Shown here: positions 20,649 through 40,943 of the stretch, one piece after another
Numbering within the stretch: the first letter of the stretch is position 1
Layout of the letters: every line of letters starts with the position of its first letter
Assembly: GCF_900128975.1 (NCBI RefSeq)
Contig: NZ_FQVC01000010.1
Location: 1-64,000 of the forward strand
Direction of reading: 5' to 3'
DNA from: Devosia limi DSM 17137
Lineage (GTDB): Bacteria > Pseudomonadota > Alphaproteobacteria > Rhizobiales > Devosiaceae
Length of the DNA: 64,000 nucleotides
Translations under genes and position numbers: made by a program
Notes under the pieces: generated by a model
What the model was told of the DNA's origin: nothing
The model's database searches: none
What the model saw: only the letters and a program-made list of their open reading frames with translations

Positions 20649-22267
20649 GCACGACGCCCCTGCTTCAGGTCGAGAACCTGTCAATCGAATTTGGCTCGGG
20701 ATCGGCGGCGGTCAAGGCTGTGCGCAATGTCAGCTGGTCGATTGCGCCCGGCGAAACGCTTGCCATCATTGGCGAGAGCGGCTCCGGGAAAAGTGTCAGC
20801 TCATCGACCATCCTCAACCTACTACCCATGCCCCCAGCTCGCATCACCAGCGGCAGGATCATGTTCGACGGAATTGACCTGCTCAAGATCAACGCGCGGC
20901 AGCGCCGGGAGATCAACGGCAAGCGCATTTCCATGATCTTCCAGGATCCACTGTCGAGCCTTAATCCACTGCACACGGTCGGCCGGCACATTACCGAGGC
21001 CATGACGGCCCACGGCGTGGACAGCGCATCGGCTCGAACGCGCGCGCTGGACCTGCTGACCCGCGTTGGCATTCCCAGTCCCGAAACGCGTTTCGACGAC
21101 TATCCGCACCAGTTCTCGGGCGGCCAGCGCCAACGCATCATGATTGCGGTGGCGATTGCCATGGGCCCGGAACTGCTGGTGGCAGACGAGCCGACCAGCG
21201 CTCTCGACATTACTGTCCAGGCCGAGATCCTGCAGCTGCTCCGGAGCCTCCAGAAGGAAACCGGGATGGCCATCGCCATCATCACGCATGACATCAACGT
21301 GGCCCGTCAGTTTGCAGACAAAGTCGCCGTGATGCATCGGGGTGAAGTAGTGGAGGCAGGCCTGACCAGTGTGGTCCTGACTAATCCCACCAATGACTAT
21401 GCACGCCGGCTGATTGCGGCCGTGCCAGATCATACGGAAGCCATTGTCAGCTACCACCGTCCCGCCGACGGCGAACCGATGTGCAAAGTCACGAAGCTGA
21501 CCAAGATTTACCCGGCGCGGAAGAACTTCTTCGGCCGCCGGGTGAGCGCGGACAAGATCGCCGTCAAGGATGTGAGCCTTGATATCTATCCCGATGAGAT
21601 CGTCTGCGTGGTCGGCGAGACCGGGTCTGGAAAATCCACCCTGGTCCGATCAATTCTGCTGCTTGAAAAGGCCGATGCAGGCGCGGTGGTGATTGGCGGC
21701 AAGAACCTGATGGACATGGATGCCGCGGCGTTACGCGGCATGCGGCGCGACATGCAGATCATCTTTCAGGATCCCACTGCCTCGCTGAACCCGCAGCTGA
21801 CCGTGGAAGGGATCATCTGTGAGCCGTGGAACATTCACCAGGATGTCGTGGCGCCCGCGGACCGTCGCAGGCAGGCAGGCGACCTGCTGGAGCGCGTCGG
21901 ACTCAAGCGCGAGCAACTTGACCTGCATCCGCACCAGTTTTCGGGCGGGCAGCGCCAGCGTATCGCCATTGCCCGGGCTCTGGCCCTGCGGCCGCAGCTG
22001 ATCGTCTGCGATGAAGCCGTTTCGGCGCTGGACGTATCCGTGCGCGCGCAAATTCTTGACCTGCTGGCCGAGCTCAAGGCGGCGACCGGCATGTCACTGC
22101 TGTTCATCACCCATGACCTGAGCCTGGTCCGACAGTTCGCCAATCGCGTCATCGTCATGCGCAATGGCGAAATCGTCGAAATGGGCAATGTGCAGGACGT
22201 GTTCCTGGCCCCTGCGCACGACTATACCAAGAGCCTGCTGGGCTCACTGGAGCGCCTAATTGAGTAA
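20645..22267 (+). CDS. Fused ABC transporter ATP-binding protein (DppD-DppF in one chain)
   Basis: The 540-residue protein contains two full ATPase domains. Domain 1 (about 5-255) has Walker A 'GESGSGKSVSS', signature 'FSGGQRQRIMIAVAIA', Walker B 'LLVADEPTSALD' and the oligopeptide-type C-terminal extension. Domain 2 (about 280-535) has 'GETGSGKSTLV', 'FSGGQRQRIAIARALA' and 'LIVCDEAVSALD'. The latter carries 'DEAVSALD' in place of the usual 'DEPVSALD', a mild variation. Fused DppDF chains are common in alphaproteobacteria. The protein energises uptake through the two permeases encoded upstream. Confidence 0.92.
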   Translation: MSTTPLLQVENLSIEFGSGSAAVKAVRNVSWSIAPGETLAIIGESGSGKSVSSSTILNLLPMPPARITSGRIMFDGIDLLKINARQRREINGKRISMIFQDPLSSLNPLHTVGRHITEAMTAHGVDSASARTRALDLLTRVGIPSPETRFDDYPHQFSGGQRQRIMIAVAIAMGPELLVADEPTSALDITVQAEILQLLRSLQKETGMAIAIITHDINVARQFADKVAVMHRGEVVEAGLTSVVLTNPTNDYARRLIAAVPDHTEAIVSYHRPADGEPMCKVTKLTKIYPARKNFFGRRVSADKIAVKDVSLDIYPDEIVCVVGETGSGKSTLVRSILLLEKADAGAVVIGGKNLMDMDAAALRGMRRDMQIIFQDPTASLNPQLTVEGIICEPWNIHQDVVAPADRRRQAGDLLERVGLKREQLDLHPHQFSGGQRQRIAIARALALRPQLIVCDEAVSALDVSVRAQILDLLAELKAATGMSLLFITHDLSLVRQFANRVIVMRNGEIVEMGNVQDVFLAPAHDYTKSLLGSLERLIE

Positions 22268-22307: not shown

Positions 22308-22961
22308 TCAGCGGCGGGAGAGATTGTCGACGAAACCGGCCCAGACATGGTTGAGGTGATGGTTGAGCGCGTCGCGAGCTGCGGCACCGTCGCCATCGGC
22401 GATGGCCTGCAGGATTTCGAGATGTTCCTTGCAGTTTTCGCGGAACCGACCGGGGTAGCGGTTGACGTTGCACATGCGGACGCGGCGACGGACCGTGGCA
22501 ATGGTCTGTTCCAGGGCAGCGTTGCCGCTGGCCTTGGCGATGGCCATATGCAGGTCTTCGTCGAGCACGAAATAGACCGGCAGATCGGCCTCTTCGCGGT
22601 CGGCCATGGCTTCGATGCGTCCTTTGAGATCGGCCATGACTTCGGGCGCCATGCGGCCGGCAGCACATGCACAGGCCTCGCCTTCCAGCAGGCGACGCAA
22701 CTGCAGCAGATCGAGGTATTCTTCGATCGAGGGCGAGGGCACCATGTAGAGCCCGTTGGACAACCGCTCGAGCATGCCCTCCCCGTGCAGGCGGCTGAGT
22801 GCGATGCGCAGCGGCGTGCGGGAGATGTCGAGAATTTCCGACAGGGGCCGCTCTTCGATCACCTTTCCGCCGGGCAGTTCACGCTGGAGGATCATCAATG
22901 ACAACGCCTGATAGGTGCTTTCCGAGAGGGTCTGACCTCCGGTGGCGGGGTTCTTCATCAA
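22308..22961 (-). CDS. GntR-family regulator with FCD ligand domain
   Basis: This 217-residue minus-strand gene is convergent with the transporter operon and divergent from the catabolic operon starting at 23145. The N-terminal winged helix (about 12-75) reads 'LSESTYQALSLMILQRELPGG' and 'LSEILDISRTPLRIALSRLHGEGMLE'. The C-terminal FCD domain (about 85-215) has metal-type residues in 'DEDLHMAIAKASGN' and 'LNHHLNHVWAG'. Such proteins usually bind an organic acid and repress a neighbouring pathway. Its position between the uptake and catabolic operons makes it the likely local regulator. Candidate sites are 17124-17140, 23014-23031 and 28954-28970. Confidence 0.87.
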   Translation of the reverse strand: MMKNPATGGQTLSESTYQALSLMILQRELPGGKVIEERPLSEILDISRTPLRIALSRLHGEGMLERLSNGLYMVPSPSIEEYLDLLQLRRLLEGEACACAAGRMAPEVMADLKGRIEAMADREEADLPVYFVLDEDLHMAIAKASGNAALEQTIATVRRRVRMCNVNRYPGRFRENCKEHLEILQAIADGDGAAARDALNHHLNHVWAGFVDNLSRR

Positions 22962-23144: not shown

Positions 23145-23735
23145 ATGCCAGACCACAACTCATCCGATACGGGCACAGCATTGACCTGGCTCAAGCTTGC
23201 GCCAGCCGAGCCGACGCCAACGCTGCAGACGGTGTTCGACGCTACGCGCGAACGCATCGGCTATGTCCGCAACTCGCAGCGCGCGATGTCCGGCACACCC
23301 GATGTGGTGATTGCGCTCGAAGGTCTTAGTCGTTCGCTGATGAACCAGACCTCGGGCACATTGTCGGCCAAGGAGCGCGAGCTGATCGCGCTTGTCGCCA
23401 GCGTCACCAATAACTGCGTCTCCTGCATTTTCAGCCATGCGGCTCGCCTGCGCGCGATTACCGGCGATCCGGTATGGACCGCCGTGGTTGAAGCAAACTA
23501 TCGCCACGCCGCGCTGACAGCGCGCGAGCGCGCCCTGGCGGACTATGCCTACAAGCTGACCGCACATCCGAACCTCGTCGATGACAAGGACCTCGAGCCT
23601 ATGCGTGCTGCCGGCGTCACCGAGCAGGACATATTCTACGTCATCGGCATCACGGCCTATTTCAACCTCAGCAACAGGTTGATGAGCGGTATGGGCGTGC
23701 GCCCAAATCGCGAGGCTTACGAAGCCGGCCGCTGA
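23145..23735 (+). CDS. Carboxymuconolactone decarboxylase / AhpD-like peroxidase-related protein
   Basis: I chose the ATG at 23145 because AAGGGAG stands about eight bases before it; the longer frame to 23043 has no start signal. The 196-residue protein is an all-helical CMD-fold protein with the redox motif 'NNCVSCIFSHAARL' (CxxC plus His, about 82-95). This is typical of AhpD-like 'peroxidase-related' enzymes, which reduce peroxides or alkyl hydroperoxides using the CxxC pair. It lacks the lactone-decarboxylase-only pattern. It leads the catabolic operon, 22 bases ahead of the PLP lyase, so it may protect against peroxide formed by the flavoenzymes downstream or act on a pathway intermediate. 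Confidence 0.8.
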   Translation: MPDHNSSDTGTALTWLKLAPAEPTPTLQTVFDATRERIGYVRNSQRAMSGTPDVVIALEGLSRSLMNQTSGTLSAKERELIALVASVTNNCVSCIFSHAARLRAITGDPVWTAVVEANYRHAALTARERALADYAYKLTAHPNLVDDKDLEPMRAAGVTEQDIFYVIGITAYFNLSNRLMSGMGVRPNREAYEAGR

Positions 23736-23757
23736 CCCTGATACCGAGGATACTACC

Positions 23758-24966
23758 GTGAGCAACACCGACGCAAAGTATGGATTTGGCACGCGCCTCG
23801 TGCAGATGGGACGCGTCAAATCCGACGAACAGACCTTCGTAAACCCGCCGCTGGAGCGTGGTTCGAGCGTGTTGTTTCCCTCCATCGCTGCGCGGGACGC
23901 TGTTCGTCAGCGTCCCTATGACCAGGTTCTGACCTATGGGCTGAAGGGCAGTTCCACCCACTTCCATCTCGAAGACAGCATTGCCGAGATCGAGGGGGGC
24001 AGCCGTTGCCAGCTGGTCTCGACCGGGCTGGCCGCCGTTACCACGGTGCTGTTCACCTTTATCAAGGGCGGCCAGCACTGCCTGATGCCGGACAGCGTCT
24101 ATGGCCCGACCCGCACTTTCCTAGCCACGATCGGCAAGGATTGCGGCATGGCCGTAACCTACTATCCGCCCGCCATCGACGAAGCGGGACTGCGCGCGCT
24201 GGTGCAGGACAATACCGTGGTCATCTACGCCGAGAGCCCGGGCAGCCACACAATGGAAGTCCAGGACATCGCCATGCTGTCGCGAGTCGCTCGCGATGTC
24301 GGTGCCAAGGTGCTGATGGATAACACCTGGGGCTTCTCGCACTTCAAGCCCTTTGAGCATGGGGTCGATTGTTCGATCCAGGCCGGGACGAAATATGTCG
24401 GCGGTCATTCCGACCTGATGCTGGGGGCGATCACCACCAATAGCGACGAAAACTGGCAGCGCCTGCGCAACACGGCGGTCACTCTGGGACAGTATGCGAG
24501 CCCCGATGACTGTTGGCTTGCCCTGCGCGGACTGCGCACGCTGCGCATTCGCATGGCGGAACACATGCGGGCCGGCATCGAGGTTGCTGAGTGGCTGCGC
24601 GATCGCCCCGAAGTCACCCTGGTGCTGCATCCCGCTTTGCCGGGTGCCCCCGGTCACGATTTGTGGAAGCGCGACTTCACTGGTGCCTGCTCGCTGTTCT
24701 CGGTCGTGCTGGATGCCAGCTATGACTATGCCGACATGGTGGCCTTTATCGATGCCCTCCAATTGTTTGGCATCGGCGCATCCTGGGGCGGATTTGAAAG
24801 CCTCGTGCTGCCCACCACGGGCTCCATAACACGCCTGCCAGTGAGTTCCATCGACGCTGCACCGACCTTCCGACTGCATATCGGGCTTGAGGACACAACC
24901 GACCTTATTGCGGACCTCGCGGCGGGGCTCGACGTGCTGAACCAGCACCGGGCCAGCCGCACCTAG
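23758..24966 (+). CDS. PLP-dependent trans-sulfuration enzyme, cystathionine beta-lyase-like
   Basis: The 402-residue gene starts with GTG at 23758. It is a Cys/Met-metabolism fold-type-I PLP enzyme. Signs are 'YGLKGSSTHFHLEDSIAEIEGG' (active-site Tyr/Arg region), 'MPDSVYGPTRTFL', 'YAESPGSHTMEVQDI', 'DNTWGFSHFKPFEHGVD' and the PLP lysine in 'IQAGTKYVGGHSDLMLG' (about residue 210). MetC-type enzymes break the C-S bond of cystathionine or cysteine conjugates, giving a thiol, pyruvate and ammonia. Nothing else here belongs to methionine synthesis, so it probably opens a sulfur-linked or beta/gamma-substituted amino acid. RidA follows directly, consistent with enamine or imine products. Confidence 0.87.
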   Translation: MSNTDAKYGFGTRLVQMGRVKSDEQTFVNPPLERGSSVLFPSIAARDAVRQRPYDQVLTYGLKGSSTHFHLEDSIAEIEGGSRCQLVSTGLAAVTTVLFTFIKGGQHCLMPDSVYGPTRTFLATIGKDCGMAVTYYPPAIDEAGLRALVQDNTVVIYAESPGSHTMEVQDIAMLSRVARDVGAKVLMDNTWGFSHFKPFEHGVDCSIQAGTKYVGGHSDLMLGAITTNSDENWQRLRNTAVTLGQYASPDDCWLALRGLRTLRIRMAEHMRAGIEVAEWLRDRPEVTLVLHPALPGAPGHDLWKRDFTGACSLFSVVLDASYDYADMVAFIDALQLFGIGASWGGFESLVLPTTGSITRLPVSSIDAAPTFRLHIGLEDTTDLIADLAAGLDVLNQHRASRT

Positions 24967-25003
24967 CGCCAATTCCATCCAATTCTTTGATCAGGACCAA
25001 GTC

Positions 25004-25354
25004 ATGAGCACCATTACCCGTATCGAGCCCAACCATCGCCGCAGCCGCGTCGTCATCCATGGCGATACGATCTACCCGGCAGGCCAGGTGGCCTCGGACA
25101 CCAATGGCGACATCACCCACCAGACCAAGGGATGCCTGGCCAATATCGACCATGTTCTGGCGCTCGCCGGCAGCGACAAGAGCAAGATCCTCAGCGCCAC
25201 CATCTGGCTGAGAGATATGACCAACTTCAAAGCCATGAACGAAGTCTGGGACGCCTGGATCGACCCCGAAAATCCGCCTGCCCGCTCATGCGGCGAGGTG
25301 AAGCTGGCCCGCCCCGACCTGCTGATCGAAATCATCATCATTGCGGCGCGCTAA
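25004..25354 (+). CDS. RidA (YjgF/YER057c/UK114) family deaminase
   Basis: The 116-residue protein has the complete RidA fold, with 'HGDTIYPAGQVASD' near the N-terminus, 'NIDHVLALAGSDKSKILSATIWL' in the middle, and the imine-binding arginine region 'NPPARSCGEVKLARPDLLIEI' at the end. RidA proteins hydrolyse reactive enamines and imines to 2-oxo acids and ammonia, and one branch is 2-aminomuconate deaminase (AmnD type). Lying between a PLP lyase and a full set of lower meta-cleavage enzymes, a substrate-specific deaminase role is more likely than general housekeeping. Confidence 0.9.
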   Translation: MSTITRIEPNHRRSRVVIHGDTIYPAGQVASDTNGDITHQTKGCLANIDHVLALAGSDKSKILSATIWLRDMTNFKAMNEVWDAWIDPENPPARSCGEVKLARPDLLIEIIIIAAR

Positions 25355-25384
25355 CGACCGCGCGAATTTTAGAAGGTGGCCATC

Positions 25385-26182
25385 GTGTCAGACGCAAATT
25401 ATCAGGAAGCCGCAGATCGGCTCTGGCAGGCTTGGCAGACCGGGGGGGTCGTCGACCCCGTCCGCGACTGTATCGGCGCCAGCGACGTGGACGCCGCCTA
25501 TCAGGTGCAGGAAATCAATACCCGCCGTTGGCAGGACCAGGGACGCAAGATATCGGGCCGCAAGATCGGCCTGACGGCCAAGGCCGTGCAGGCCCAATTG
25601 GGTGTCGATCAACCCGACTACGGAATCCTGTTTGCCGATATGGAAGTGCAGTCCGGCGAAGAGATCGCCTTTGGGCGGGTGCACCAGCCCAAGGTGGAAG
25701 CCGAAGTGGCCTTTGTTATTTCCGCGCCCCTGACCGGTCCGCATCTGACGATGGCCGATCTCATCCTTTCTATTGGCTTTGCTTTGCCGTCGATTGAAGT
25801 GGTGGGAAGCCGGGTCCGCAACTGGGATATCCGGATCGCCGATACCGTGGCGGATAATGCCTCGAGCGGCCTCTATGTGCTGGGGCAGACGCCCCGTCAG
25901 CTCGCCGATTTCGACCCGCGCCTCTGCGGCATGGTGATGCTGCGCAACAACGAGCCGGTTTCGGTGGGTGCGGGGGCTGCGTGCCTTGGCAGCCCCCTGA
26001 ATGCCACCCTGTGGCTGGCTCGCGTCATGGCAAAGGCCGGCCGTCCGCTTGGACCGGGCGATGTCGTGCTTTCGGGTGCTCTCGGCCCAATGGTCCCCGC
26101 CACGCCGGGCGATGTGTTCGAGGCCCGGATCAATCGGCTGGGCTCGGTCACCGTAAGTTTCGGAACAGAAGCAAAATCATGA
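25385..26182 (+). CDS. 2-oxopent-4-enoate hydratase (MhpD/DmpE/AmnF type)
   Basis: The start is probably GTG at 25385, eight bases after AGAAGG; GTG at 25376 is an in-frame alternative. The 265-residue FAH-like fold protein matches the hydratase branch: '[23 protein letters not shown]' (about 57-79), '[12 protein letters not shown]' with the metal glutamates, '[27 protein letters not shown]' and 'SGALGPMVP'. It adds water to 2-oxopent-4-enoate to give 4-hydroxy-2-oxovalerate, the substrate of the aldolase two genes on. It overlaps the acetaldehyde dehydrogenase gene by four bases. Confidence 0.87.
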
Positions 26183-27120
26183 CCAAAATCAAATGTGCGA
26201 TTATCGGGTCCGGCAATATCGGCACCGATCTGATGATCAAGATCATGCGCAATTCCGATATCCTGGAAATGGGCGCATTCGTGGGGATCGACGCGGCAAG
26301 CGATGGCCTGGCCCGTGCGCTGCGGCTGGGTGTGGCAACGACCCATGAAGGTCTTGAGGGCTTGCGCCAACTCGCCGTCTATCCGGAAATCCGGGTGGTG
26401 TTCGATGCGACTAGCGCCGGCGCGCATAGGGCCCATAACGAGGCCCTGCGGGCCGATGGCAAGCAGGTGATTGACCTCACCCCCGCTGCCATCGGTCCCT
26501 TCACCATCCCGGCGGTCAACCTCGATAGCCATCTCGAGGCAGGCAATGTCAACATGGTGACCTGCGGGGGGCAGGCTACGATTCCGATCGTCGCGGCGGT
26601 GAACCGGGTGAGCCCGGTGCGCTATGCCGAAATCGTCGCTTCGATCAGCTCGAAATCGGCGGGCCCGGGCACCCGCGCCAATATCGATGAGTTTACCCAC
26701 ACCACCGCGCAGGCCATCGAGCAGGTGGGCGGCGCCAAGCGTGGCAAGGCGATCATCATCCTCAACCCGGCGGAACCGCCGATGATCATGCGCGATACGG
26801 TGTTCTGCTTCTGCGAAACGGCAGATGTGGAGGCCATTCGCGCCTCCGTCGAGCAGATGGTGCGCGACGTGCAGGCCTATGTCCCCGGCTATCGGCTGAA
26901 ACAGCATGTGCAGTTCGAGCATATCGGCTCAAACGCCCCGCTGCTCATCCCCGAAATGGGTGGCAGCTTCGCCGGCATCAAGGTCTCGGTGTTCCTCGAG
27001 GTCGAGGGCGCCGCACACTACCTGCCAGCCTATGCCGGCAATCTCGACATCATGACCTCGGCAGCCATGAGGACTGCCGAACGACTGGTGGAGATACGCA
27101 ACTGGTGGAGGGCTGCGTGA
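26179..27120 (+). CDS. mhpF: Acetaldehyde dehydrogenase (acetylating), MhpF/DmpF type
   Basis: The ATG at 26179 overlaps the hydratase stop (ATGA). The 313-residue protein has an N-terminal Rossmann fold ('[19 protein letters not shown]') and the catalytic cysteine in '[15 protein letters not shown]' (about residue 129), as in DmpF-type enzymes. The C-terminal '[12 protein letters not shown]' and '[20 protein letters not shown]' fit the family. It turns acetaldehyde, NAD and CoA into acetyl-CoA and normally forms a channelling complex with the aldolase encoded next, whose start overlaps its stop by one base. The length is normal. Confidence 0.93.
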
Positions 27121-28139
27121 TGGCCAGACTTTATGTTCAGGATGTCACACTGCGCGACGGCATGCATGCCGTGCGCCATCAATATGATCTGGGTCAGGTG
27201 CGCGACATCGCCCAGGCGCTTGATGAGGCGGGTGTCGACGCCATCGAGGTTGCGCATGGCGACGGGCTTTCCGGCTCCACCTTCAACTACGGCTTCGGCG
27301 CACATACCGACACAGCCTGGGTCCGCGAAGCGGCAAAGGTCTGCAAGAATGCTCGCTTGACCACGCTGCTGCTGCCCGGCATCGGCACGGTAGAAGATCT
27401 CAAGCGCGCGCGTGATAACGGCGTGAAATCGGTGCGCATCGCCACCCATTGCACGGAAGCAGATGTCAGCGCCCAGCATATTCGGGCGGCTAAGGAGATG
27501 GGGCTGGACGTGTCCGGCTTCCTGATGATGTCGCATATGAATACGCCCGAGCGCCTCGCTGCCGAAGCCGCCAAGATGGAGTCCTATGGTGCCGATTGCG
27601 TCTATGTGACCGATTCCGGCGGCGCACTGACCATGGCGGGCGTGGAAGCGCGGTTTGCCGCCTATAACCAGGCTCTCAAACCCGCAACCCAGCGCGGCGT
27701 GCATATGCACGAGAACCTCTCGCTATCGGTCGCCAACACCGTAGTCGCGGTGCAGAACGGGGCAATCCGTGTGGACGCGTCGTTGGCCGGCATGGGGGCC
27801 GGCGCCGGCAACTGCCCGCTGGAGGCCTTCATCGCCGTGGCCAACGTCTATGGCTTCGAGCACGGCTGCGACCTGTTCAAGCTGCAGGATGCTGCTGAAA
27901 CTCTCGTCCGTCCCTTGCAGGACCGCCCGGTTCGGGTCGACCGCGAGACGCTGACGCTGGGCTATGCCGGGGTCTACTCATCCTTCCTGCGGCACGCAGA
28001 AAAGGCGGCGGCGCTTTATGGGCTCGATACACGAGCCATCCTCATCGAGCTGGGCAAGCGCGGCATGGTCGGCGGACAGGAAGACATGATCGTGGACGTG
28101 GCGCTCGACATGATAAAGTTGAGAGAGGAAACGGCATGA
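27120..28139 (+). CDS. mhpE: 4-hydroxy-2-oxovalerate aldolase (MhpE/DmpG type)
   Basis: Start ATG at 27120 (TGATG overlap), with GGAGG nine bases before it. The 339-residue protein is a DRE-TIM-type metal aldolase: '[16 protein letters not shown]' (catalytic Arg-Asp, about 6-21), '[10 protein letters not shown]', the metal motif '[17 protein letters not shown]' (about 199-215) and '[11 protein letters not shown]'. A C-terminal dehydrogenase-contact domain follows. It cleaves 4-hydroxy-2-oxovalerate to pyruvate and acetaldehyde, the latter handed to MhpF. Gene overlaps on both sides indicate strict co-translation. Confidence 0.93.
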
Positions 28140-28903
28140 CCGACCTGGAAAGACTAGCAGCGATCGTCGATGACGCCGCGCTGAACGCCAATGCAATTCC
28201 CCAGTTCTCCGAGCATAGCCCTCTCAGCGTTGCCGACGGCTATGCCGTGCAGGCGCTCTCCATGCAGCGTCGCTATGCCCGTGGAGACAGGCGCGTCGGC
28301 ATAAAGATGGGCTTCACCAGCCGCGCCAAGCAGGTGCAGATGGGGCTCGACGACCTGATCTGGGGCCACCTGACCGAAACCATGCGGATGCAGGAAGGCG
28401 GCAGCATCTCGATGGCGCACTATGTCCATCCGCGCGTCGAGCCTGAAATCGCCTACCTGATCAAACATGAGCTTGCCGGCAATATCTCCCCGCTCGAAGC
28501 GATCAATGGCGTGGCGGGAATTGCCTGCGCCATGGAGGTGATCGACAGCCGCTATGCGAACTTCAAGTTCGATGCCGGCGATGTGGTGGCCGATAACACC
28601 TCGGCAGCCGGTTTCGTCATTGGCGACTGGCATCCACCCGATACGGACGTGACCAATCTGGGGATCGTCCTCAACATCAACGGCCGTCCAAAGCAGATCG
28701 GTTCTAGCGCATCCATATTGGGCAATCCGTCCCGGGCGCTGGTAGCGGCTATCCGCCTTGCGGCCGAGAATGGTGAACCGCTGCAGCCGGGGGACATCGT
28801 GCTGGCCGGCTCGGCCACGGCAGCCGTGGAGCTGTCGGTTGGCGACCATGTCGAAGCGCAGTTCGAAACGCTGGGCTCGGTCTGCTTCAGCGTCCGTGAA
28901 TAG
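28136..28903 (+). CDS. 4-oxalocrotonate decarboxylase (DmpH/XylI/AmnE type)
   Basis: The 255-residue protein overlaps the aldolase by four bases. It is a paralogue of the hydratase at 25385 but carries the decarboxylase marks: '[25 protein letters not shown]', '[12 protein letters not shown]' (metal glutamates), '[23 protein letters not shown]' and '[10 protein letters not shown]' instead of 'SGALGPMV'. DmpH-type enzymes decarboxylate (3E)-2-oxohex-3-enedioate to 2-oxopent-4-enoate. With the RidA protein, this makes a full 2-aminomuconate to acetyl-CoA route. A 4-oxalocrotonate tautomerase gene was not seen. Confidence 0.87.
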
Positions 28904-28953
28904 CATGCAGCATAGGCAGGCGGTTGATGCAAAGCCGCCTACCCACCTACAAT

Positions 28954-28970
28954 AAATCCCGCCTGGATTT
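28954..28970. promoter_or_regulatory. Inverted-repeat operator (site C) upstream of the racemase
   Basis: AAATCCCGCCTGGATTT has the same 17-bp arm layout as site A (17124-17140), with 13 of 17 bases identical. Its arms extend outward to CAAT and ATTG. The bases before both sites are also alike (CTACAAT here, CCACAAG at site A). It lies between the decarboxylase stop and the ATG at 29029, which suggests separate control of the racemase-to-dehydrogenase genes and supports the shorter racemase start. Confidence 0.55.
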
Positions 28971-29028
28971 TATTGACATTTCATCTGGACCCCGCAACAG
29001 CTGGGTAGATTTCACACAGGTTCGCAGC

Positions 29029-29757
29029 ATGAAAGATATCGCATCTCGTCCACCCCATCGCGGACGACCCATTTACGGCGCCAAGCTCGGCATCATCATT
29101 CTCGACACCCGGTTCCAGCGTTTCGTCGGCGATATCGGCAATGCGGAAACTTTCCGCTTTCCCGTGCAGTATTCAGTTGTCAGCGGCATCTCGCTGGGGG
29201 CCGACCTGACGCCTGATGGTGAAACTCTACAGGTGTTCTATCGGGCTATGGACGACTTGGTAGCGCGCGGCGTCGATGGCATTTCGACCAGTTGCGGCTT
29301 CCTCGCGATCATGCAGCCGCACCTGACCGCACGCAGCCCGGTGCCGGTGGCGAGTTCCAGCCTTTTGCAGATCCCCATGCTGCAGCGCATGCTGCCCTCC
29401 AACAAGCAGGTCGGCGTGGTGACCGCCAAGAAGCCTGCCCTGACGCCGGAGCATTTCGCGGGGGTGGGCGTCGACTTCAATGGTCCGATCGCCGGCATGT
29501 CGCTTGAGGGCTACTTCCGGGCAAACCTGGTCAGCGGCAACCCCAGAATCGATTTTGCCCGGCAGGAAGCCGAAGTGCTAGACACGGTGCGCACCTTCCT
29601 CACCGAGAGCCCCAATATCGGCGCGCTGGTGTTTGAGTGCACCAACCTGTCGCCTTACTCGGCGGCCGTCGAACGCGAATTCGGCATCCCGGTGTACGAC
29701 GTCATCACCATGCTCGACTGGTTCCATGCCGGTCTTAGTCCCCGCCGGTACAGGTAA
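29029..29757 (+). CDS. Asp/Glu/hydantoin racemase-family protein
   Basis: The open frame extends back to 28924, but I start at ATG 29029 because the inverted repeat at 28954-28970 lies upstream of it. The 242-residue protein has the two-cysteine racemase fold, with first Cys in 'DGISTSCGFLAIMQ' (about 89) and second Cys in 'ALVFECTNLSPYSAAVE' (about 203). Family members interconvert D and L forms of aspartate, glutamate, hydantoins or related acids, and some act as maleate or arylmalonate enzymes. It is followed within six bases by an aspartate-dehydrogenase-like gene and further on by a D-amino-acid-type dehydrogenase, which fits stereo-inversion of an amino acid. Confidence 0.78.
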   Translation: MKDIASRPPHRGRPIYGAKLGIIILDTRFQRFVGDIGNAETFRFPVQYSVVSGISLGADLTPDGETLQVFYRAMDDLVARGVDGISTSCGFLAIMQPHLTARSPVPVASSSLLQIPMLQRMLPSNKQVGVVTAKKPALTPEHFAGVGVDFNGPIAGMSLEGYFRANLVSGNPRIDFARQEAEVLDTVRTFLTESPNIGALVFECTNLSPYSAAVEREFGIPVYDVITMLDWFHAGLSPRRYR

Positions 29758-29762
29758 ACGCC

Positions 29763-30530
29763 ATGCCCGCAGCATTACAGTCCAGAAACGGCGTCACCCG
29801 CATCGGCATCATCGGGGCCGGTCGCATCGCTCAAGCCATCATGGCGAGCATTCGCAGCGGTGAAGCGGGCGCCTGCGAAGTCAGTGCTGTGCTGGCGCGA
29901 CGCATTGTGGAGCGCAGCGATCTTGAGCCGCTGCTTACCACCGACCGCGAAGCGTTTCTGGCAACCAGACCGGATCTCATCATCGAAGCCGCGGGCCCGG
30001 CTGCGCTAACGGAGCACGGCGTCGCCGCCATTGCGGTGACGGACATCTGGTCGATCAGTGCCATGGCACTTGCCGATCGCGATTTTGCCGCTGCGGTTGA
30101 AGCCGCGGGCAAGCGTTCGGGACATCGTCTCCGTCTTGTGGGTGGGGCTGTTGCCGGGCTGGACGCCGCTGCCATCGCCGCGCGTGATCCGAATGCGAAA
30201 ATTCGCTTCGAGGCCATTACCGATGGCGCGTCCGATGGCGCCCCCAATTTTGAAGGCAGCACCCGTGAAGCGGTAGCCACGCTGCATGGGGTCAATGTCG
30301 TCGCCGCTGCCGCAATTGCCGGCACCGGGTTCGACGCCACCACGCTCAAGTTCTTTGATCGCAAGCCTGGCGCACGACGCTATTTCAACATCCATATCGA
30401 GAGCACGGTCGGCCTCTATATGATGAGCAGCAGCCCCAACCTGTCGCCGACGCAGGGTGCCACGGCTGTTGTCGCTGCCTCGGTCGTCACGGCTCTGGTG
30501 CAGGCGCAGCAAACCGTCTGGGCAGGCTGA
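29763..30530 (+). CDS. L-aspartate dehydrogenase-like protein
   Basis: The 255-residue protein shows an N-terminal Rossmann motif 'RIGIIGAGRIAQAIMASI' (about 13-30) and the aspartate-dehydrogenase C-terminal domain with 'LVGGAVAGLDAAAIAA' (about 121-137), 'NVVAAAAIAGTGFDATTLKFF' in two pieces, and 'NIHIESTVGLYMMSSS'. The family oxidatively deaminates aspartate to iminosuccinate, or acts in reverse in NAD synthesis. No nadA or nadC is nearby, so a catabolic deaminating role on an aspartate-like compound is more likely. The spacing to its neighbours is 5 and 3 bases, clearly one operon. Confidence 0.82.
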   Translation: MPAALQSRNGVTRIGIIGAGRIAQAIMASIRSGEAGACEVSAVLARRIVERSDLEPLLTTDREAFLATRPDLIIEAAGPAALTEHGVAAIAVTDIWSISAMALADRDFAAAVEAAGKRSGHRLRLVGGAVAGLDAAAIAARDPNAKIRFEAITDGASDGAPNFEGSTREAVATLHGVNVVAAAAIAGTGFDATTLKFFDRKPGARRYFNIHIESTVGLYMMSSSPNLSPTQGATAVVAASVVTALVQAQQTVWAG

Positions 30531-30533
30531 GAA

Positions 30534-31604
30534 TTGGTTGAGGCGGGCGCGGCGTCCCAGTTGCAACTCTTCCTGCGCGCCACATTGGCTCTGGTCATAG
30601 GCGTTGCTTCCGGACTCGTTGCCGCTGCGACCGGCCTGCCCTTGCCATGGATGCTGGGGCCGATGATCGGCACCACCGTTGCTGCTATCGCAGGGGCACC
30701 CCTGACGTCTCCAATGCGCCTGCGAACGATCTTTCTGCCCATACTCGGTGTCATGCTCGGCTCGGGCATAGATGCTTCGACCCTCTCGGCAATCGGGCAG
30801 TGGACGACCACGCTCCTGCTACTTCTGCCTTTCGGCATCGTCACCTCATTGGCCTGTTACCTGTTCTATCGGCGTGTCGGCCGATATGACCCGGTCACGG
30901 CGTTTTTCAGCTCGATGCTGGGCGGCATCAATGAGAGCATCCTGCAAGGCGGCAATGCTGGTGGTGACGAGAAACGCATTGCGATGGCCCATGCCACCCG
31001 CCTGCTGGCGGTGGTTTTGTTGGGGGTGCTGTTTTTCGGTTTGGTGCTCGGGGTACCAACCGGGGCGACACCAGACAGGCAACTTCAGCACCTGACCCTG
31101 CAGGACTGGCTGATCCTGGGCAGTTGCGCCCTGATCGGCGCGCCGCTCGGAAAGCTCATCCGGCTACCCGCCGCGCTGATCATCGGGCCCATGTTGCTGA
31201 GTGCCGCCGCCCATGTCAGCGGTCTGGTCGTGGTCGCACCACCCGATGCGCTGGTCCTTGCCGCGCAGGTGGTGCTGGGAACCGTGATCGGTTCGCGCTT
31301 CATCGGCTCGCGCATACGCCAGGTCGGAACCGACATGCTGCTTGGACTAGGGGCGTCGCTGATCATGCTGGCGATCACCGTGCTGTTCGCCTTCATCGTC
31401 CAAAGCGTCACGGGAACGAGAATGACGCATGCCTTCCTGGCCTATTCTCCCGGCGGGCTGACGGAAATGAGCCTGCTTGCGCTCGCTATGGGACAGGAAG
31501 TTGCCTACGTCTCGGTGATGCATCTGGCCCGGATGAGCGCCGTGGTGCTGCTGTCTCCTCTGGCGCTGCCATGGCTGCGGCGAAAACAGCAGGCCGAAGC
31601 ATGA
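30534..31604 (+). CDS. AbrB-family (duplicated) membrane transporter-like protein
   Basis: The 356-residue protein has about ten hydrophobic segments in two repeats, with the duplicated 'GxxxxxxxGLPLPWMLGPMIG' (about 22-42) and 'RLPAALIIGPMLLSAAAHVSG' (about 206-226) that define the AbrB / 'ammonia monooxygenase' membrane family. Despite the old name it is not an oxygenase; relatives are thought to be regulators or small-molecule transporters. The start is TTG at 30534, only three bases after the previous stop, with no clear alternative. In this operon it could move an amino acid, ammonia or a product across the membrane. Confidence 0.75.
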   Translation: MVEAGAASQLQLFLRATLALVIGVASGLVAAATGLPLPWMLGPMIGTTVAAIAGAPLTSPMRLRTIFLPILGVMLGSGIDASTLSAIGQWTTTLLLLLPFGIVTSLACYLFYRRVGRYDPVTAFFSSMLGGINESILQGGNAGGDEKRIAMAHATRLLAVVLLGVLFFGLVLGVPTGATPDRQLQHLTLQDWLILGSCALIGAPLGKLIRLPAALIIGPMLLSAAAHVSGLVVVAPPDALVLAAQVVLGTVIGSRFIGSRIRQVGTDMLLGLGASLIMLAITVLFAFIVQSVTGTRMTHAFLAYSPGGLTEMSLLALAMGQEVAYVSVMHLARMSAVVLLSPLALPWLRRKQQAEA

Positions 31605-31640
31605 CGCATTCAAACAGCTCAAAACAAAAGAGGAAACCTC

Positions 31641-32771
31641 ATGGCCACCAGTTGTGACCTGCTGGTCATCGGCGGAGGACTGATCGGCACTGCCATGGCG
31701 TGGGGTGCTGCGCGCACCGGGGCCAAGGTGACCGTCATCGACGGTGAGGACGACGCCTACCGAGCCTCGGTCGGCAATTTCGGCCTGCTCTGGACGCAGG
31801 GCAAGGGCATCAATTCTCCTGCCTATGCAGCGTGGACACGCGCTGCGGTGAACCAATGGCCCGAATTTGCGCAGGCGCTGGCCGACATCAGCGGCGTCGA
31901 TATCGGCTTCCAGCAGAATGGTGGCCTGCATTTCATGCTGTCCGAGGCAGAAGCCGAAAAGCGCATGGCACAGTTGGCGCCTCTCGCTGCAGCCAAAGAT
32001 GACTTCGCGATCGAATTCATCGCCGCAGCAGAATTGCGGCGATCCATGCCGGATCTGGGACCGGAGGTTTATGGCGCAACCTTCTGCCGGCGCGATGGCG
32101 CGGTCAATCCGCTGACGCTGCTTCAGGCACTGCGCGTTGCGCTTGCGCGGAGCGGCGTGAGCATCCTTGCGGGCACGTCGGTCAAGCAGATCCAACTCTC
32201 GGGCGGTAGCTTTACGGTTGTCGCCGGCGACCATAAAATCCTGGCAGATAAGCTGCTGCTGGCGGCGGGTCTGGGCAGCCGCGAACTGGGCCATCAGGTC
32301 GGGCTCGATCTGGCGGTGTTTCCGCAACGCGGTCAATTGATGATCACAGCGCGAACCACGCGACTTTTGGATCTACCTGCCAGTTCGGTGCGGCAGATGC
32401 CTGAGGGCACGATCCTGCTTGGCTCGACACAGGAAAATGTTGGCTTCAACAAGTCCATCGGCGTGCCGCAACTGGCCAATATTGCCCAGCGCGCCGTGCG
32501 CATATTCCCGCGGATCGCCGATCTCGACCTGGTGCGCAGCTGGGCCTGTCTGCGCGTCATGACGCCCGACGGCTTTCCGATCTACCAGCAGTCGGAACAA
32601 TATCCTGGTGCCTTTGCCGCCACGGCTCATAGCGGGGTGACCCTTGCGGGCATCCATGCACTGACCGTGGCCCCGGCGCTGCTGTCGGGCACACTGCCAC
32701 CCGCGCTCGACGCATTCGCCGCTGGTCGCTTCGGCGACTGGCAGGGCCATGCGGGCGGGTCCGAACACTAG
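31641..32771 (+). CDS. FAD-dependent oxidoreductase, DadA/GlyA-oxidase type (beta subunit)
   Basis: The 376-residue flavoprotein has 'DLLVIGGGLIGTAMAWGAARTG' at the N-terminus, 'SVGNFGLLWTQGKG' for FAD contact and a D-amino-acid-oxidase-like C-terminus ('SWACLRVMTPDGFPIYQQ', 'TAHSGVTLAGIHA'). Together with the next two genes it has the three-part layout of D-hydroxyproline dehydrogenase and opine/HCN-synthase-type complexes. This chain would be the catalytic flavin subunit that oxidises an amino group, with electrons passing via the iron-sulfur and second flavin subunits to the respiratory chain. AGAGGAAA lies upstream of the ATG. Confidence 0.83.
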   Translation: MATSCDLLVIGGGLIGTAMAWGAARTGAKVTVIDGEDDAYRASVGNFGLLWTQGKGINSPAYAAWTRAAVNQWPEFAQALADISGVDIGFQQNGGLHFMLSEAEAEKRMAQLAPLAAAKDDFAIEFIAAAELRRSMPDLGPEVYGATFCRRDGAVNPLTLLQALRVALARSGVSILAGTSVKQIQLSGGSFTVVAGDHKILADKLLLAAGLGSRELGHQVGLDLAVFPQRGQLMITARTTRLLDLPASSVRQMPEGTILLGSTQENVGFNKSIGVPQLANIAQRAVRIFPRIADLDLVRSWACLRVMTPDGFPIYQQSEQYPGAFAATAHSGVTLAGIHALTVAPALLSGTLPPALDAFAAGRFGDWQGHAGGSEH

Positions 32772-32781
32772 GGAGCGAGCC

Positions 32782-33081
32782 ATGTTCACGCGACTGACGC
32801 AGGATAGCGCTGCCTCCGACCAGACGATCGAATTTACCGTCAATGACCGCAAAGTGGTGGCGCGAATGGGCGACACTGTCGCCGCAGCGCTCCTCGCGGC
32901 AGGCGAGATGCAGTTTCGTATTTCACCCAGCGCCGACAAGCCGCGTGGCCCCTATTGCATGATGGGTGTTTGCTTTGAATGCCTCGTCACCATCGATGGT
33001 CGCGCCGGGCGGCAGGCATGTCTCACCGCGGTGAAATCGGGCATGCAGGTCATCATCCCGGAAGGAGGCCGAAATGACTGA
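32782..33081 (+). CDS. [2Fe-2S]-binding small subunit of an amino-acid dehydrogenase complex (HcnA-like, gamma)
   Basis: Starting at ATG 32782 (GGGAGCGAG upstream), this 99-residue protein is a one-domain ferredoxin of the Fer2_4 type with cysteines in 'GPYCMMGVCFECLVTIDG' (about 61-78) and 'RQACLTAV' (about 85). It should carry one 2Fe-2S cluster. Its place between two flavoprotein genes, overlapping the next by eight bases, is typical of heterotrimeric D-hydroxyproline-type dehydrogenases and opine oxidases. Confidence 0.85.
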   Translation: MFTRLTQDSAASDQTIEFTVNDRKVVARMGDTVAAALLAAGEMQFRISPSADKPRGPYCMMGVCFECLVTIDGRAGRQACLTAVKSGMQVIIPEGGRND

Positions 33082-34483
33082 TCCCGTGACCAATCCACAC
33101 TGGGACGTCGTGGTCATTGGTGCAGGCCCGGCCGGGCTTGCCGCTGCAACCCTGCTGGCTGAACAGAAGACCAGCGTCTTGCTGGTCGATGAACAGCCCG
33201 AGCCTGGCGGCCAGATCTATCGGGGCATCGAGCGCCTGCAGGCGGGCAGTGCCAAGGCGCATATCCTGGGGGAGGATTATGTGTATGGCGCGGATCTGGT
33301 GCGCCGTTTTCGCTCCAGTGCGGCAAGCTATCGACCCGAAACCAGCCTTTGGCATGTCACGCCGAAACTCGAGCTGTTCGTCAGCCGGGGTGGTGTCGCG
33401 GAAACCTTGCAGGCATCGCAGTTGATCCTCGCCACCGGAGCCATGGAGCGCGCCGTGCCCGTTGCCGGGTGGACGCTGCCCGGCGTTGTCACCGCCGGGG
33501 CGCTGCAAATTCTGCTCAAGAGCAGCGGGCTTGTGGCGGACCAACCGGTGATTCTTGCCGGTTCTGGGCCGCTGTTTTATCTCCTGGCCACGCAGTGCCT
33601 CGCCGCTGGAGTCCCGATTGCTGCTTTACTCGATACCGCCAAGGCCCGGCACATGTTCGGTGCAATCGGCGCGCTTCCCAGGGCCCTGACCGGTGCCGGG
33701 CCGGGTTATCTGAGCAAGGGAGTCAAGCTGATGCGGGCGCTGCGTCAGAGTGGTGTCCCAACCTATCGCGGCGTGGAGGATTTGCAGATCCTCGGTGAGA
33801 ATCGGGTCAGCGAAGTGCAGTTCCGGTCCGGCAAACGGAAGCATCGGCTCAAGGCAGGCATTGTCGCCTTGCATGAAGGGGTGGTTCCGATGGTGAACGC
33901 CACCCGCATGCTGGGGTGTGAGCATACCTGGGACGACAGGCAGCATGCCTTCCACCCCGTCACGGACACTTGGGGCGCGACCAGCCATGCCGGAATCCGG
34001 GTGGCAGGAGATGCGGCGGGGATTGTCGGCGCGCGTGGCGCGGAGCATCAGGGGGGCCTTGCGGCCGTCGGTGCGCTGCATGATCTGGGGCGTATCGACA
34101 GTGCAAGACGCGACCGGCTGGCCTCCGCCGAGATGCGCGCGCTTGAGGCGCATATGACGGCGCGGCCCTTGCTCGATCGGCTCTACCCGCCGCGTGCCGA
34201 AATCAAGACGCCGGGCGATGACATCGTGGTCTGCCGCTGTGAAAACGTGACGGCGGGCGCAGTGCGCCAGCTGGCCACGCAAGGCCTGGGGCCCAATCAG
34301 ATGAAAGCGGCATTGCGCTGTGGGATGGGACCGTGCCAGGGGCGGCTCTGCGGCGATACAGTCGCCCAGATCATCGCCGATACGCGCGGCACGGCGCCGC
34401 GCCCCTCGGACTATTACAATATCCGTGCGCCGCTGAAGCCAGTGTCAATCGGCGAGATCAGCACATTGGGGGAGCGCCGCTAG
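33074..34483 (+). CDS. FAD/NAD(P)-binding subunit with C-terminal BFD [2Fe-2S] domain (HcnB/OoxA-like, alpha)
   Basis: The 469-residue protein has an N-terminal pyridine-nucleotide-disulfide-type FAD fold ('DVVVIGAGPAGLAAATLLAEQ', 'LVDEQPEPGGQIYRG', 'LILATGAMERAVPVAGW') and a second dinucleotide fold ('PVILAGSGPLFYLLATQCLA'). The C-terminal BFD-like iron-sulfur domain (about 385-440) has cysteines in 'VVCRCENVT' and 'ALRCGMGPCQGRLCG'. This is the large subunit of HcnABC-, opine-oxidase- and D-hydroxyproline-dehydrogenase-type complexes. It completes the trio with the two preceding genes and ends the operon, 14 bases from the convergent M20 peptidase. Confidence 0.87.
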   Translation: MTDPVTNPHWDVVVIGAGPAGLAAATLLAEQKTSVLLVDEQPEPGGQIYRGIERLQAGSAKAHILGEDYVYGADLVRRFRSSAASYRPETSLWHVTPKLELFVSRGGVAETLQASQLILATGAMERAVPVAGWTLPGVVTAGALQILLKSSGLVADQPVILAGSGPLFYLLATQCLAAGVPIAALLDTAKARHMFGAIGALPRALTGAGPGYLSKGVKLMRALRQSGVPTYRGVEDLQILGENRVSEVQFRSGKRKHRLKAGIVALHEGVVPMVNATRMLGCEHTWDDRQHAFHPVTDTWGATSHAGIRVAGDAAGIVGARGAEHQGGLAAVGALHDLGRIDSARRDRLASAEMRALEAHMTARPLLDRLYPPRAEIKTPGDDIVVCRCENVTAGAVRQLATQGLGPNQMKAALRCGMGPCQGRLCGDTVAQIIADTRGTAPRPSDYYNIRAPLKPVSIGEISTLGERR

Positions 34484-34497: not shown

Positions 34498-35892
34498 TCA
34501 GTCTGCAAGCGCAGCGAGGATGCGGACCCAGGACCGCGTGCCCTTGTAGAAGCTCTCGACGTCATATTTCTCGTTGGGAGAATGCACCTTGTTGTCGATG
34601 CGGGCGAACCCGATCAGAAAGGTGTCCAGGTCCAGCACCCGCTTGAATTCACCGACCACAGGGATGGAGCCTCCGGAGCCGGTAATCACGGCGCGCTTGC
34701 CCCATTCTTCGGTCAGGGCGCTAATGGCTTTTTGCAGAGCCGCGCCGTCGCTCGGGACGGTAATGGCTGGCGAGCCGCCATGGCCGGTGAAGCGAATGGT
34801 GCAGTCGGGCGGAAGCTGCGCTTCGACATGCCGGCGAAAGGCCTGACGGATCTTCTCCGGGTCCATGTTGGAGACCAGCCGGAACGAAATCTTGGCGCAG
34901 GCGGTGGCCGGTATTACGGTCTTGAATCCGTCGCCGGTATAGCCCCCGGTCATCCCATTGATCTCGCAGGTCGGTCTGGCCCAGAGCGTTTCCAGTATGG
35001 TCCGTCCTGTCTCGCCGGCCGGGACAGACAGGCCCGCCGTGCCCAGGAACGCGCCCTCGTCAAATCCCAGACCGGCCCATTGCGCCTTCAGTTCGGGGCT
35101 GATTTCGGCCACATCGTCATAAAAGTCGGGGATCGCTACGCTGCCATCGGCAGTGCGCAGGCTAGCAATGATCTGTGCTAGAATCTGGTTCGGATTGCGC
35201 GCAGCATTGCCGAACATGCCTGAATGCAGGTCTTTTCTGGCACAGGTGATCTCGATCTCTTCAGCAACGAGACCGCGTAGCATGGTGATGACCGATGGCG
35301 TTGCTGCGTCCCACATGCGGGTATCGCAAACCAGGGCAATATCGGCCGCCGACAGCTCGTCCCGATGCGTCGTCAGGAAGTCGGGCAGGCTGGGACCGCC
35401 GCTTTCTTCCTCGCCTTCGAGGAGCATCGACACGCGAACCGGCAGGGTGCCCGTGACCGTTTTCCAGGCGCGGCAGGCTTCGATGAATGTCATCATCTGA
35501 CCTTTGTCGTCCGAGGCACCGCGCGCGATGATGATCCGGTTCCCCTTGGCGTCCGTCTGCACCACGGGCTCAAACGGATCGGAATGCCATTGTGACAGCG
35601 GATCGACCGGTTGGACGTCGTAATGGGCATAGAACAGCACATGGGGCCCGACTTGGTCGGGGCTATGGGCCACGACGACCGGATGCCCCGGCGTCTGGCG
35701 GGGAGCGGCTTCGAAACCCAGATCCTGCAACTGCTCCGACAGCCAGTTTGCGGCCCGCCGGCACTCCGGCGCATAGGCTGGATCGGTCGAAATCGACTTG
35801 ATGCGCAGCAGCGCCTTGAGCCGCTCCAGCCCTTCGTCGAGATTGTCATCGACATGAGCCAAAACCGCAGAAAGTTCGCTGTTCATTGTCAT
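34498..35892 (-). CDS. M20-family metallopeptidase (dipeptidase type)
   Basis: I prefer the ATG at 35892, ten bases after a GGGAG; a GTG at 35901 is in frame but too close to it. The 464-residue protein has the M20 di-metal residues in order: 'LFYAHYDVQP' (His, Asp), 'GASDDKGQM' (bridging Asp), 'LEGEEESGGPS' (catalytic Glu pair) and 'VCDTRMWD', plus the lid domain (about 200-360) and the C-terminal 'GGSIPVV'. The length fits CNDP-like dipeptidases, which hydrolyse dipeptides or N-acyl amino acids in the cytoplasm. It is convergent with the trio operon and could release the amino acid from an imported peptide. Confidence 0.87.
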   Translation of the reverse strand: MTMNSELSAVLAHVDDNLDEGLERLKALLRIKSISTDPAYAPECRRAANWLSEQLQDLGFEAAPRQTPGHPVVVAHSPDQVGPHVLFYAHYDVQPVDPLSQWHSDPFEPVVQTDAKGNRIIIARGASDDKGQMMTFIEACRAWKTVTGTLPVRVSMLLEGEEESGGPSLPDFLTTHRDELSAADIALVCDTRMWDAATPSVITMLRGLVAEEIEITCARKDLHSGMFGNAARNPNQILAQIIASLRTADGSVAIPDFYDDVAEISPELKAQWAGLGFDEGAFLGTAGLSVPAGETGRTILETLWARPTCEINGMTGGYTGDGFKTVIPATACAKISFRLVSNMDPEKIRQAFRRHVEAQLPPDCTIRFTGHGGSPAITVPSDGAALQKAISALTEEWGKRAVITGSGGSIPVVGEFKRVLDLDTFLIGFARIDNKVHSPNEKYDVESFYKGTRSWVRILAALAD

Positions 35893-36165
35893 GTTACGCA
35901 CGCTCCCACAGTCTGCGATGAAGACGAACTAAATGTCCTGATGCTCTCTTAGCGCGATCGCAAAGCTGAAGAAACACGCAACAGCGTGCGTGATCGAGGA
36001 CGCGCGCAAAAAACTGATAGGCCGTCAGTTGTGGCACCGCTGGGGCGGTCGCACCCCATCCCGCGGCTTTCAGCGTGGAAGCCAAACATGCGCCAGCTCG
36101 GGAAGCCGAGATTGCGAAATTAGCGTAAGCATCCGGTGAGCACCACGGTGTGAGTGTCGCGCCGT

Positions 36166-40913: not shown

Positions 40914-40943
40914 TCACACCACCGGTATCGAGCAAATTCGCCA

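Follow-up and report, generated by a model that had tools for sequence, protein, structure and literature searches.

A lower meta-cleavage gene set within an amino-acid-type operon of Devosia limi DSM 17137

Layout of the locus and identity of the tail genes

Devosia limi DSM 17137 carries a run of 13 genes, all on the forward strand, at positions 23145–34483 of the window, the initial 64 kb of contig C12, which is 145 kb long and belongs to a 4.3-Mb genome. Open reading frames and family profiles identify, in the middle of this run, the complete lower part of a meta-cleavage route, hereafter called the tail: 2-oxopent-4-enoate hydratase, acylating acetaldehyde dehydrogenase, 4-hydroxy-2-oxovalerate (HOA) aldolase and 4-oxalocrotonate decarboxylase. 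A RidA-family gene precedes the tail and a gene of the Asp/Glu-racemase family follows it, and the run ends in a three-subunit dehydrogenase (the trio; Table 1). With intergenic distances between −23 and +37 bp, the 13 genes probably constitute a single, co-transcribed operon. Gene content and spacing thus bear out the first-pass annotation, which had placed a full lower meta-cleavage route inside an amino-acid operon. RidA and the tail enzymes indeed lie together at 25004–28903, and the short overlaps proposed for them are found among the four tail genes (4, 1 and 4 bp), with gaps of 21 bp between RidA and the hydratase gene and 20 bp between the decarboxylase and racemase-like genes. The spacings beyond the racemase-like gene are, in order, 5, 3, 36, −23 and −8 bp. 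The reading frames of all 19 genes in Table 1 are uninterrupted. The G+C content is uniform across the operon (0.60–0.64), and a comparison of the tail with the amino-acid genes in this respect gives no sign of differing origin.

The aldolase and the acetaldehyde dehydrogenase pass their NCBIfam equivalog cut-offs, and the best solved match of the aldolase is a 4-hydroxy-2-oxovalerate aldolase (484 bits). The active-site motifs expected of working enzymes are found in the tail genes. As a block, the tail is most similar to aromatic plasmids of sphingomonads, the best match in the plasmid collection covering 39% of an 8-kb query at 67.8% DNA identity. The catechol lower meta operon on plasmid p1 of Sphingobium fuliginis KK22 has the same order of hydratase, acetaldehyde dehydrogenase, aldolase and decarboxylase genes (61, 72, 72 and 56% identity), but it also contains catechol 2,3-dioxygenase, semialdehyde dehydrogenase and tautomerase, all of which are missing from the window. 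Trees built for the decarboxylase (32 rows) and the aldolase (27 rows) do not group the sequences by pathway label (catechol, aminophenol or 3-hydroxyanthranilate), so that the aromatic branch from which the tail came cannot be told. The Devosia branches are long, 0.86 for the decarboxylase (median 0.2) and 0.45 for the aldolase (median 0.15), a weak indication that would fit a changed use of both enzymes without proving it.

Table 1. Genes of the importer-operon block and its immediate neighbours
Feature	Position	Strand	Evidence
Dpp/Opp/Nik-type ABC solute-binding protein	17231..18754	+	NCBIfam matches, all below cut-off
ABC permease, DppB/OppB type	18827..19744	+	NCBIfam matches below cut-off
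ABC permease, DppC/OppC type	19725..20648	+	family profile; start uncertain (19725 or 19737)
Fused ABC ATPase, DppD-DppF type	20645..22267	+	family profile
GntR/FCD regulator, divergent to operon	22308..22961	-	family profile
AhpD-like peroxidase-related protein (CMD family)	23145..23735	+	TIGR01926 157 bits, cut-off 82
Cystathionine beta-lyase-type PLP enzyme	23758..24966	+	TIGR01324 435 bits, cut-off 366
RidA-family imine deaminase	25004..25354	+	nearest solved: Rid2 PSPTO_0102; PAR motif
2-Oxopent-4-enoate hydratase	25376..26182	+	NF008461 319 bits, cut-off 350 (below)
Acylating acetaldehyde dehydrogenase	26179..27120	+	TIGR03215 469 bits, cut-off 282
4-Hydroxy-2-oxovalerate (HOA) aldolase	27120..28139	+	TIGR03217 556 bits, cut-off 286; solved 8ih7, 1nvm
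4-Oxalocrotonate decarboxylase	28136..28903	+	8ih6 chain F 292 bits
Asp/Glu-racemase-family protein (PRK07475 subfamily)	28924..29757	+	NF005679 285 bits, cut-off 231
AspDH/DUF108-family dehydrogenase or imine reductase, divergent sequence	29763..30530	+	PF01958 28.3, cut-off 27
AbrB-type (PF05145) membrane protein	30534..31604	+	TIGR03082, PF05145 above cut-off
Trio beta subunit, DAO-type flavoprotein, opine/D-hydroxyproline dehydrogenase-like	31641..32771	+	PF01266; GxGxxG, RxW
Trio gamma subunit, 2Fe-2S	32749..33081	+	PF13510; C-x4-C-x2-C-x12-C
Trio alpha subunit, FAD/NAD-type + BFD 2Fe-2S domain	33074..34483	+	PF07992, PF04324
M20 dipeptidase-type metallopeptidase, convergent	34498..35901	-	NF006579 743 bits, cut-off 327

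Whether the convergent M20 metallopeptidase is part of the system is uncertain. No Rfam family reached its gathering score between 14 and 37 kb, and scans for promoters and terminators gave signals no higher than in shuffled sequence. A candidate operator, TTATCTGWC, occurs twice between the GntR and AhpD-like genes; the motif was picked from this same stretch and 8 of 100 shuffles also reached two copies, and it was not used. Elsewhere in the window, a separate cluster at 619–14861 encodes a CoA-ligase-like protein, an ABC importer, GlpD-like and FAD-linked oxidases, an FGGY kinase, an aldehyde dehydrogenase, two enoyl-CoA hydratase-family proteins and a TetR regulator, and the region 40104–48067 contains an IclR-type regulator, a TRAP transporter, two SDR dehydrogenases and a fumarylacetoacetate-hydrolase-family gene.

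The RidA protein and the amino-acid genes

The window RidA was compared with 13 other RidA proteins, seven from regions containing a trio and six from aminophenol or 3-hydroxyanthranilate clusters. It shares 35–54% identity with the former (54% with the protein of an Agrobacterium cluster, 48–49% with those of L055, L038a and L040, and 35–39% with those of L045, L058 and L038b) and 26–34% with the latter. The six aminophenol and 3-hydroxyanthranilate proteins form a separate branch (support 0.98) with two sub-branches, outside of which the window RidA is placed. Joins near the window sequence are weak (0.10–0.30, with 0.30 for the join to the Agrobacterium protein), and the RidAs of L045, L058 and L038b are placed nearer the aminophenol side of the tree. 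Among solved structures, PSPTO_0102 (97 bits), 3k12 (90 bits) and PA5083 (83 bits) match the window protein best, compared with about 31 bits (30.6) for the 2-aminomuconate deaminase AmnE (6izh). A PAR motif at residue 92 aligns with that of other Rid proteins, and its arginine is presumably the equivalent of RidA Arg105. By sequence, then, the window protein does not belong to the aminomuconate-deaminase type. The Rid2 proteins PSPTO_0102 and PA5083 act in vitro on the imine produced by D-arginine dehydrogenase (PMC5619798).

The D-glutamate operon dguRABC of Pseudomonas likewise pairs a D-amino-acid dehydrogenase with a Rid2-type protein, DguB (PA5083), the third solved match above. The Devosia operon differs from it by its three-subunit dehydrogenase and its catabolic tail. 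The 2-aminophenol/2-aminomuconate clusters (amn, cnb, nba) have in common with the Devosia operon the hydratase, the acylating acetaldehyde dehydrogenase, the aldolase, 4-oxalocrotonate decarboxylase and a RidA-family gene, and the cluster on plasmid pC of Ensifer adhaerens shows the identical order of the four tail genes. In contrast to these clusters, the Devosia operon adds the racemase-like, DUF108, AbrB, trio and pyridoxal-phosphate (PLP) lyase genes, its RidA lies outside their branch, and its genome has neither a LigB-type dioxygenase nor a semialdehyde dehydrogenase above cut-off. Thus, of the features of the 2-aminomuconate branch (AmnD to AmnH), to which the first-pass annotation had assigned the set, the four tail enzymes are present, while no deaminase of the AmnE/NbaF type (by sequence), no LigB-type dioxygenase and no semialdehyde dehydrogenase above cut-off were found.

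Even so, imported or hydrolysed heterocycles could give rise to 2-aminomuconate, in a route of the 2-aminomuconate or 6-hydroxypicolinate type that comes close to the first-pass assignment, with RidA yielding 4-oxalocrotonate and the remaining amino-acid enzymes scavenging amino groups. The presence of a decarboxylase while the window shows no tautomerase match is what one would expect if deamination produced the keto form, and Rid proteins act on many imines (PMC5619798). The distance of the RidA from the cluster RidAs and the genome-wide results for LigB and semialdehyde dehydrogenase speak against this route, as does the lack of a match to a CnbZ-type deaminase among the 19 window proteins compared, and we regard it as quite improbable.

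The trio genes are arranged in tandem in the order B-C-A, with overlaps between them. Both alpha and beta contain GxGxxG, beta contains RxW, and gamma has the cysteine pattern C-x4-C-x2-C-x12-C. PMC4575208 describes opine and D-hydroxyproline dehydrogenases as having the B-C-A genes in tandem, with overlaps in P. putida. The motifs given there are GxGxxG for the alpha and beta subunits, RxW for beta, C-x4-C-x2-C-x11~12-C for gamma and, for the alpha subunit of this type, C-x-C-x15~20-C-x4-C. The Devosia alpha subunit matches the Pfam family Fer2_BFD (28.7, cut-off 26), but its CxC and Cx4C motifs are 26 residues apart when counted by hand, rather than the published 15–20. OdhBCA, Nox/Oox and D-hydroxyproline dehydrogenase share with the Devosia trio the tandem, overlapping B-C-A genes, a beta subunit of the D-amino-acid oxidase (DAO) type, a 2Fe-2S gamma subunit and an alpha subunit combining FAD and BFD domains. 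By its layout and most of its motifs, the trio is therefore akin to these flavin-dependent dehydrogenases, from which it differs in being joined to a meta-cleavage tail.

The other neighbours proposed in the first-pass annotation, i.e. a PLP C-S lyase, a racemase-family protein, a transporter-like protein, the dehydrogenase trio and a Dpp importer, were recovered; the aspartate dehydrogenase (AspDH) is represented by a divergent protein of the AspDH/DUF108 family. The PLP enzyme matches solved cystathionine beta-lyases at about 313 bits, and a relative with 50% identity adjoins a different ABC importer. The racemase-family protein stays below the cut-off of Pfam PF01177 (27.8, cut-off 31) and keeps the two predicted catalytic cysteines (in TSCGF and ECTNL), which are present in 9 of 9 rows (the window protein and eight relatives). 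The DUF108 protein falls below the cut-offs of the NadX models (54.7 versus 206.6 bits for the NadX equivalog) and matches the L-aspartate dehydrogenase 2dc1 at 58 bits, with a profile of only two rows. When its alignment is inspected by eye, a phenylalanine occupies the place of the catalytic histidine (His193 in TM1643), and a histidine follows three residues on, so that a shift is possible. The low curated scores and the uncertain placement of this histidine leave room for doubt that the protein is an aspartate dehydrogenase. Single-sequence structure models were unusable (mean pLDDT, the predicted local distance difference test score, 40.0 and 31.7).

Ring cleavage and the occurrence of the two gene sets elsewhere

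The first-pass annotation had noted the lack of a ring-cleavage gene, an observation that now extends to the whole genome (completeness given as 99.96%), searched together with 14 control genomes. LigB had no match in the genome; the model was positive in 4 of the 14 controls and also detects each of 4 aminophenol dioxygenase subunits from relatives. For catechol 2,3-dioxygenase, the single weak match in the genome reached 21.7 bits (cut-off 320), and for hydroxymuconic-semialdehyde dehydrogenase the best of 14 places reached 386 bits (cut-off 693). Since no control passed either cut-off, these two models were checked on real members: two catechol 2,3-dioxygenases scored 413 and 374 bits, and the semialdehyde dehydrogenase in the operon of a same-family relative (G114, L075) scored 842 bits. 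The strain's genome thus lacks the tested ring-cleavage families. A search for 3-hydroxyanthranilate dioxygenase (3-HAO) had no match in the genome either, but the controls were silent too, so its absence is not demonstrated. Family profiles recognise no oxygenase among the operon genes, there is no tautomerase match within the window, and seven pathway-marker probes found in the window only a 33% aldehyde-dehydrogenase match (11–13 kb) and a 25% RidA match.

In other genomes, tails with a decarboxylase are usually accompanied by such genes. At E≤1e-60, the aldolase occurs in 40 of 385 genomes of the class, D. limi included, and all 44 places outside its own genome (39 genomes) were compared, together with 14 further tail loci; some of these regions end early at contig ends. 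The decarboxylase is present in 17 of the 44 aldolase regions and missing from the other 27; the sorting by pathway covers the former. At 27 of the 31 decarboxylase-bearing loci, a gene for ring cleavage, a semialdehyde dehydrogenase or a tautomerase lies close by, and each of the 14 further tail loci has at least one pathway marker, which in L036, L087 and L091 is the tautomerase alone. Probes for semialdehyde dehydrogenase, tautomerase and dioxygenase found nothing in 4 of the 17 decarboxylase-bearing class regions (L131, L135, L136 and L141, family f106), but these look aromatic because all four contain Rieske ferredoxin and ferredoxin reductase genes. In L149, L151 and L153, a DUF108/AspDH-profile match and a relative of 3-hydroxyanthranilate dioxygenase lie within one 20-kb stretch, perhaps as NAD synthesis genes.

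The closest counterpart of the amino-acid genes is found on the pAt plasmid of Agrobacterium tumefaciens isolates from walnut (NZ_CP042276), which encodes a similar ABC importer, an AhpD-like protein (46% identity), a GntR regulator (25%), the trio (42–47%), a racemase-like protein (44%), a DUF108 protein (43%) and the 54% identical RidA. Within this 40-kb stretch, neither the tail genes nor the PLP lyase have a match, and genes for a GMC oxidoreductase, an aldehyde dehydrogenase, a dipeptidase and LLM flavin proteins are present instead. RidA, the trio and the racemase-like and DUF108 proteins therefore constitute a module of their own. DUF108 relatives are few and weak as a search key: matches in the plasmid collection comprise 20 records, all from Agrobacterium, with the module content known from NZ_CP042276. 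In the family sample, which includes the own genome, the aldolase occurs in 7 and a DUF108 match (E≤0.001) in 11 of 136 genomes, the best such match outside the own genome being 1.5e-19. The trio beta subunit (E≤1e-50) is present in 51 of 385 class genomes, own included. Among the best 20 trio places outside the own genome, 19 have the full trio, two a racemase-like gene and three RidA. A trio with a racemase-like gene was found in Paracoccus, on S. meliloti pSymA and in two class genomes (L033, L039, L043, L050), and a trio with RidA in Leisingera (L040) and Azospirillum (L038). On the Paracoccus denitrificans plasmid (L033), the racemase-like and trio genes adjoin decarboxylase genes of the UbiD/UbiX type. 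A thiamine-diphosphate enzyme and an aldehyde dehydrogenase are encoded a few kb from there, and the amino-acid core may here be coupled to a different catabolic tail.

Because the module stands alone in Agrobacterium, amid GMC oxidoreductase and aldehyde dehydrogenase genes, it does not need the tail, and the operon could serve two jobs. The module would take one substrate, or one half of a compound, and the tail another fragment of the same compound, e.g. one that is released by the PLP lyase and then opened by a dioxygenase or hydrolase not recognised as such. This would agree with the closeness of the PLP enzyme to true cystathionine beta-lyases, with its 50% relative beside another importer and with the one tautomerase-family gene of the genome, located on a different contig. 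The genome search for ring cleavage covered LigB, catechol 2,3-dioxygenase and 3-HAO, and an intradiol, gentisate, homogentisate, biphenyl-type or unknown enzyme would lie outside it. Against such a division of labour stand an operon without a recognised oxygenase and the genome-wide negatives for LigB, catechol 2,3-dioxygenase and semialdehyde dehydrogenase, and we consider it unlikely.

A possible route from an amino acid into the tail

The favoured explanation, to which we assign a probability of about 0.45, is a catabolic operon that converts an unusual amino acid to pyruvate and acetyl-CoA, with the 2-oxo acid formed by the amino-acid module entering the tail. A joint function is favoured because the spacing is tight, the frames are intact and the tail contains the sole HOA aldolase of the genome (at E≤1e-40). 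From the gene content, we infer the substrate, the order of steps and the reactions on the real substrate. The Dpp-type importer would take up the amino acid or a peptide- or opine-like conjugate of it, and the PLP lyase would first remove a substituent at the beta or gamma position. Stereochemistry and amine of the substrate would be dealt with by the racemase-family protein and the DUF108 dehydrogenase. The trio would oxidise the amino acid (probably the D-form), or an N-substituted derivative of it, and the resulting imine would be hydrolysed by RidA, giving ammonia and a 2-oxo acid. This acid would be, or become, 4-oxalocrotonate or 2-oxopent-4-enoate and pass through the decarboxylase, the hydratase, the aldolase and the acylating acetaldehyde dehydrogenase.

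Relatives of aspartate dehydrogenase, Asp/Glu racemase and 4-oxalocrotonate decarboxylase act on diacids. The most economical guess for the substrate is therefore an acidic C6 amino acid, unsaturated or substituted (2-aminohex-3-enedioate-like). The unsaturated or sulfur-linked amino (di)acid proposed in the first-pass annotation is likewise a candidate, while mimosine-type beta-heterocyclic alanines, allylglycine, canavanine, opines, pipecolates and homarine are purely speculative ones. The narrower proposal, that an acidic C6 amino acid with an unsaturated or substituted skeleton yields 4-oxalocrotonate and that the meta route serves non-aromatic catabolism in an organism without extradiol cleavage, is rather doubtful.

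Several observations weigh against the amino-acid-fed route. The hydratase and the decarboxylase (216 bits, cut-off 351) stay under their equivalog cut-offs; their identity is retained because the corresponding pair of L075 scores alike (319 and 219 bits, likewise sub-threshold) and because 8ih6, a 4-oxalocrotonate decarboxylase, is the closest solved match. The racemase-like, DUF108, trio and RidA genes (E≤1e-5) were found in none of the 44 aldolase regions, which contained one 27% PLP-enzyme match and one 26% AbrB match. The racemase-like, DUF108 and trio genes were equally missing from the 14 further tail loci, three of which have a distantly similar RidA, and neither the tail nor DUF108 occurs at the best 20 trio places. 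Within what was searched, the join of module and tail is thus confined to this genome, and the expectation that the amino-acid genes regularly accompany the tail did not hold; conservation gives no warrant of co-function. We also know of no named natural amino acid that yields 4-oxalocrotonate by deamination. Caution is further advised because this single occurrence lies between mobile elements, so that a recent chance joining is possible.

On the left, a resolvase and a transposase remnant are located at 15501–16883, and on the right, IS66 genes, an IS3-like remnant and two IS110 genes occupy 36166–39926 and 48297–50615; the IS66 TnpC is in broken pieces and adjoins a PRiA4_ORF3 domain. These elements, which flank the importer-operon block on both sides, may have dropped a tail cassette into an amino-acid operon, where it would be decaying or functionally unconnected. 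The occurrence in one genome and the long decarboxylase and aldolase branches would agree with this, but the 19 intact frames, the joints of 20–21 bp at either end of the tail, the kept motifs and the even G+C content argue against it, and we consider such an accident improbable.

What is new is the combination, as the modules themselves are already known. The first-pass annotation knew of no described route with this composition, and no paper on it was found among open-licence PMC full texts. If the lower route is indeed fed by an amino acid, aromatic degradation inferred from tail genes would be a misleading annotation, and a new amino-acid substrate and its route would await identification. 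The cluster is tractable in this respect, with few genes, probably in one operon, and with a tail-less relative of the amino-acid module available for comparison.

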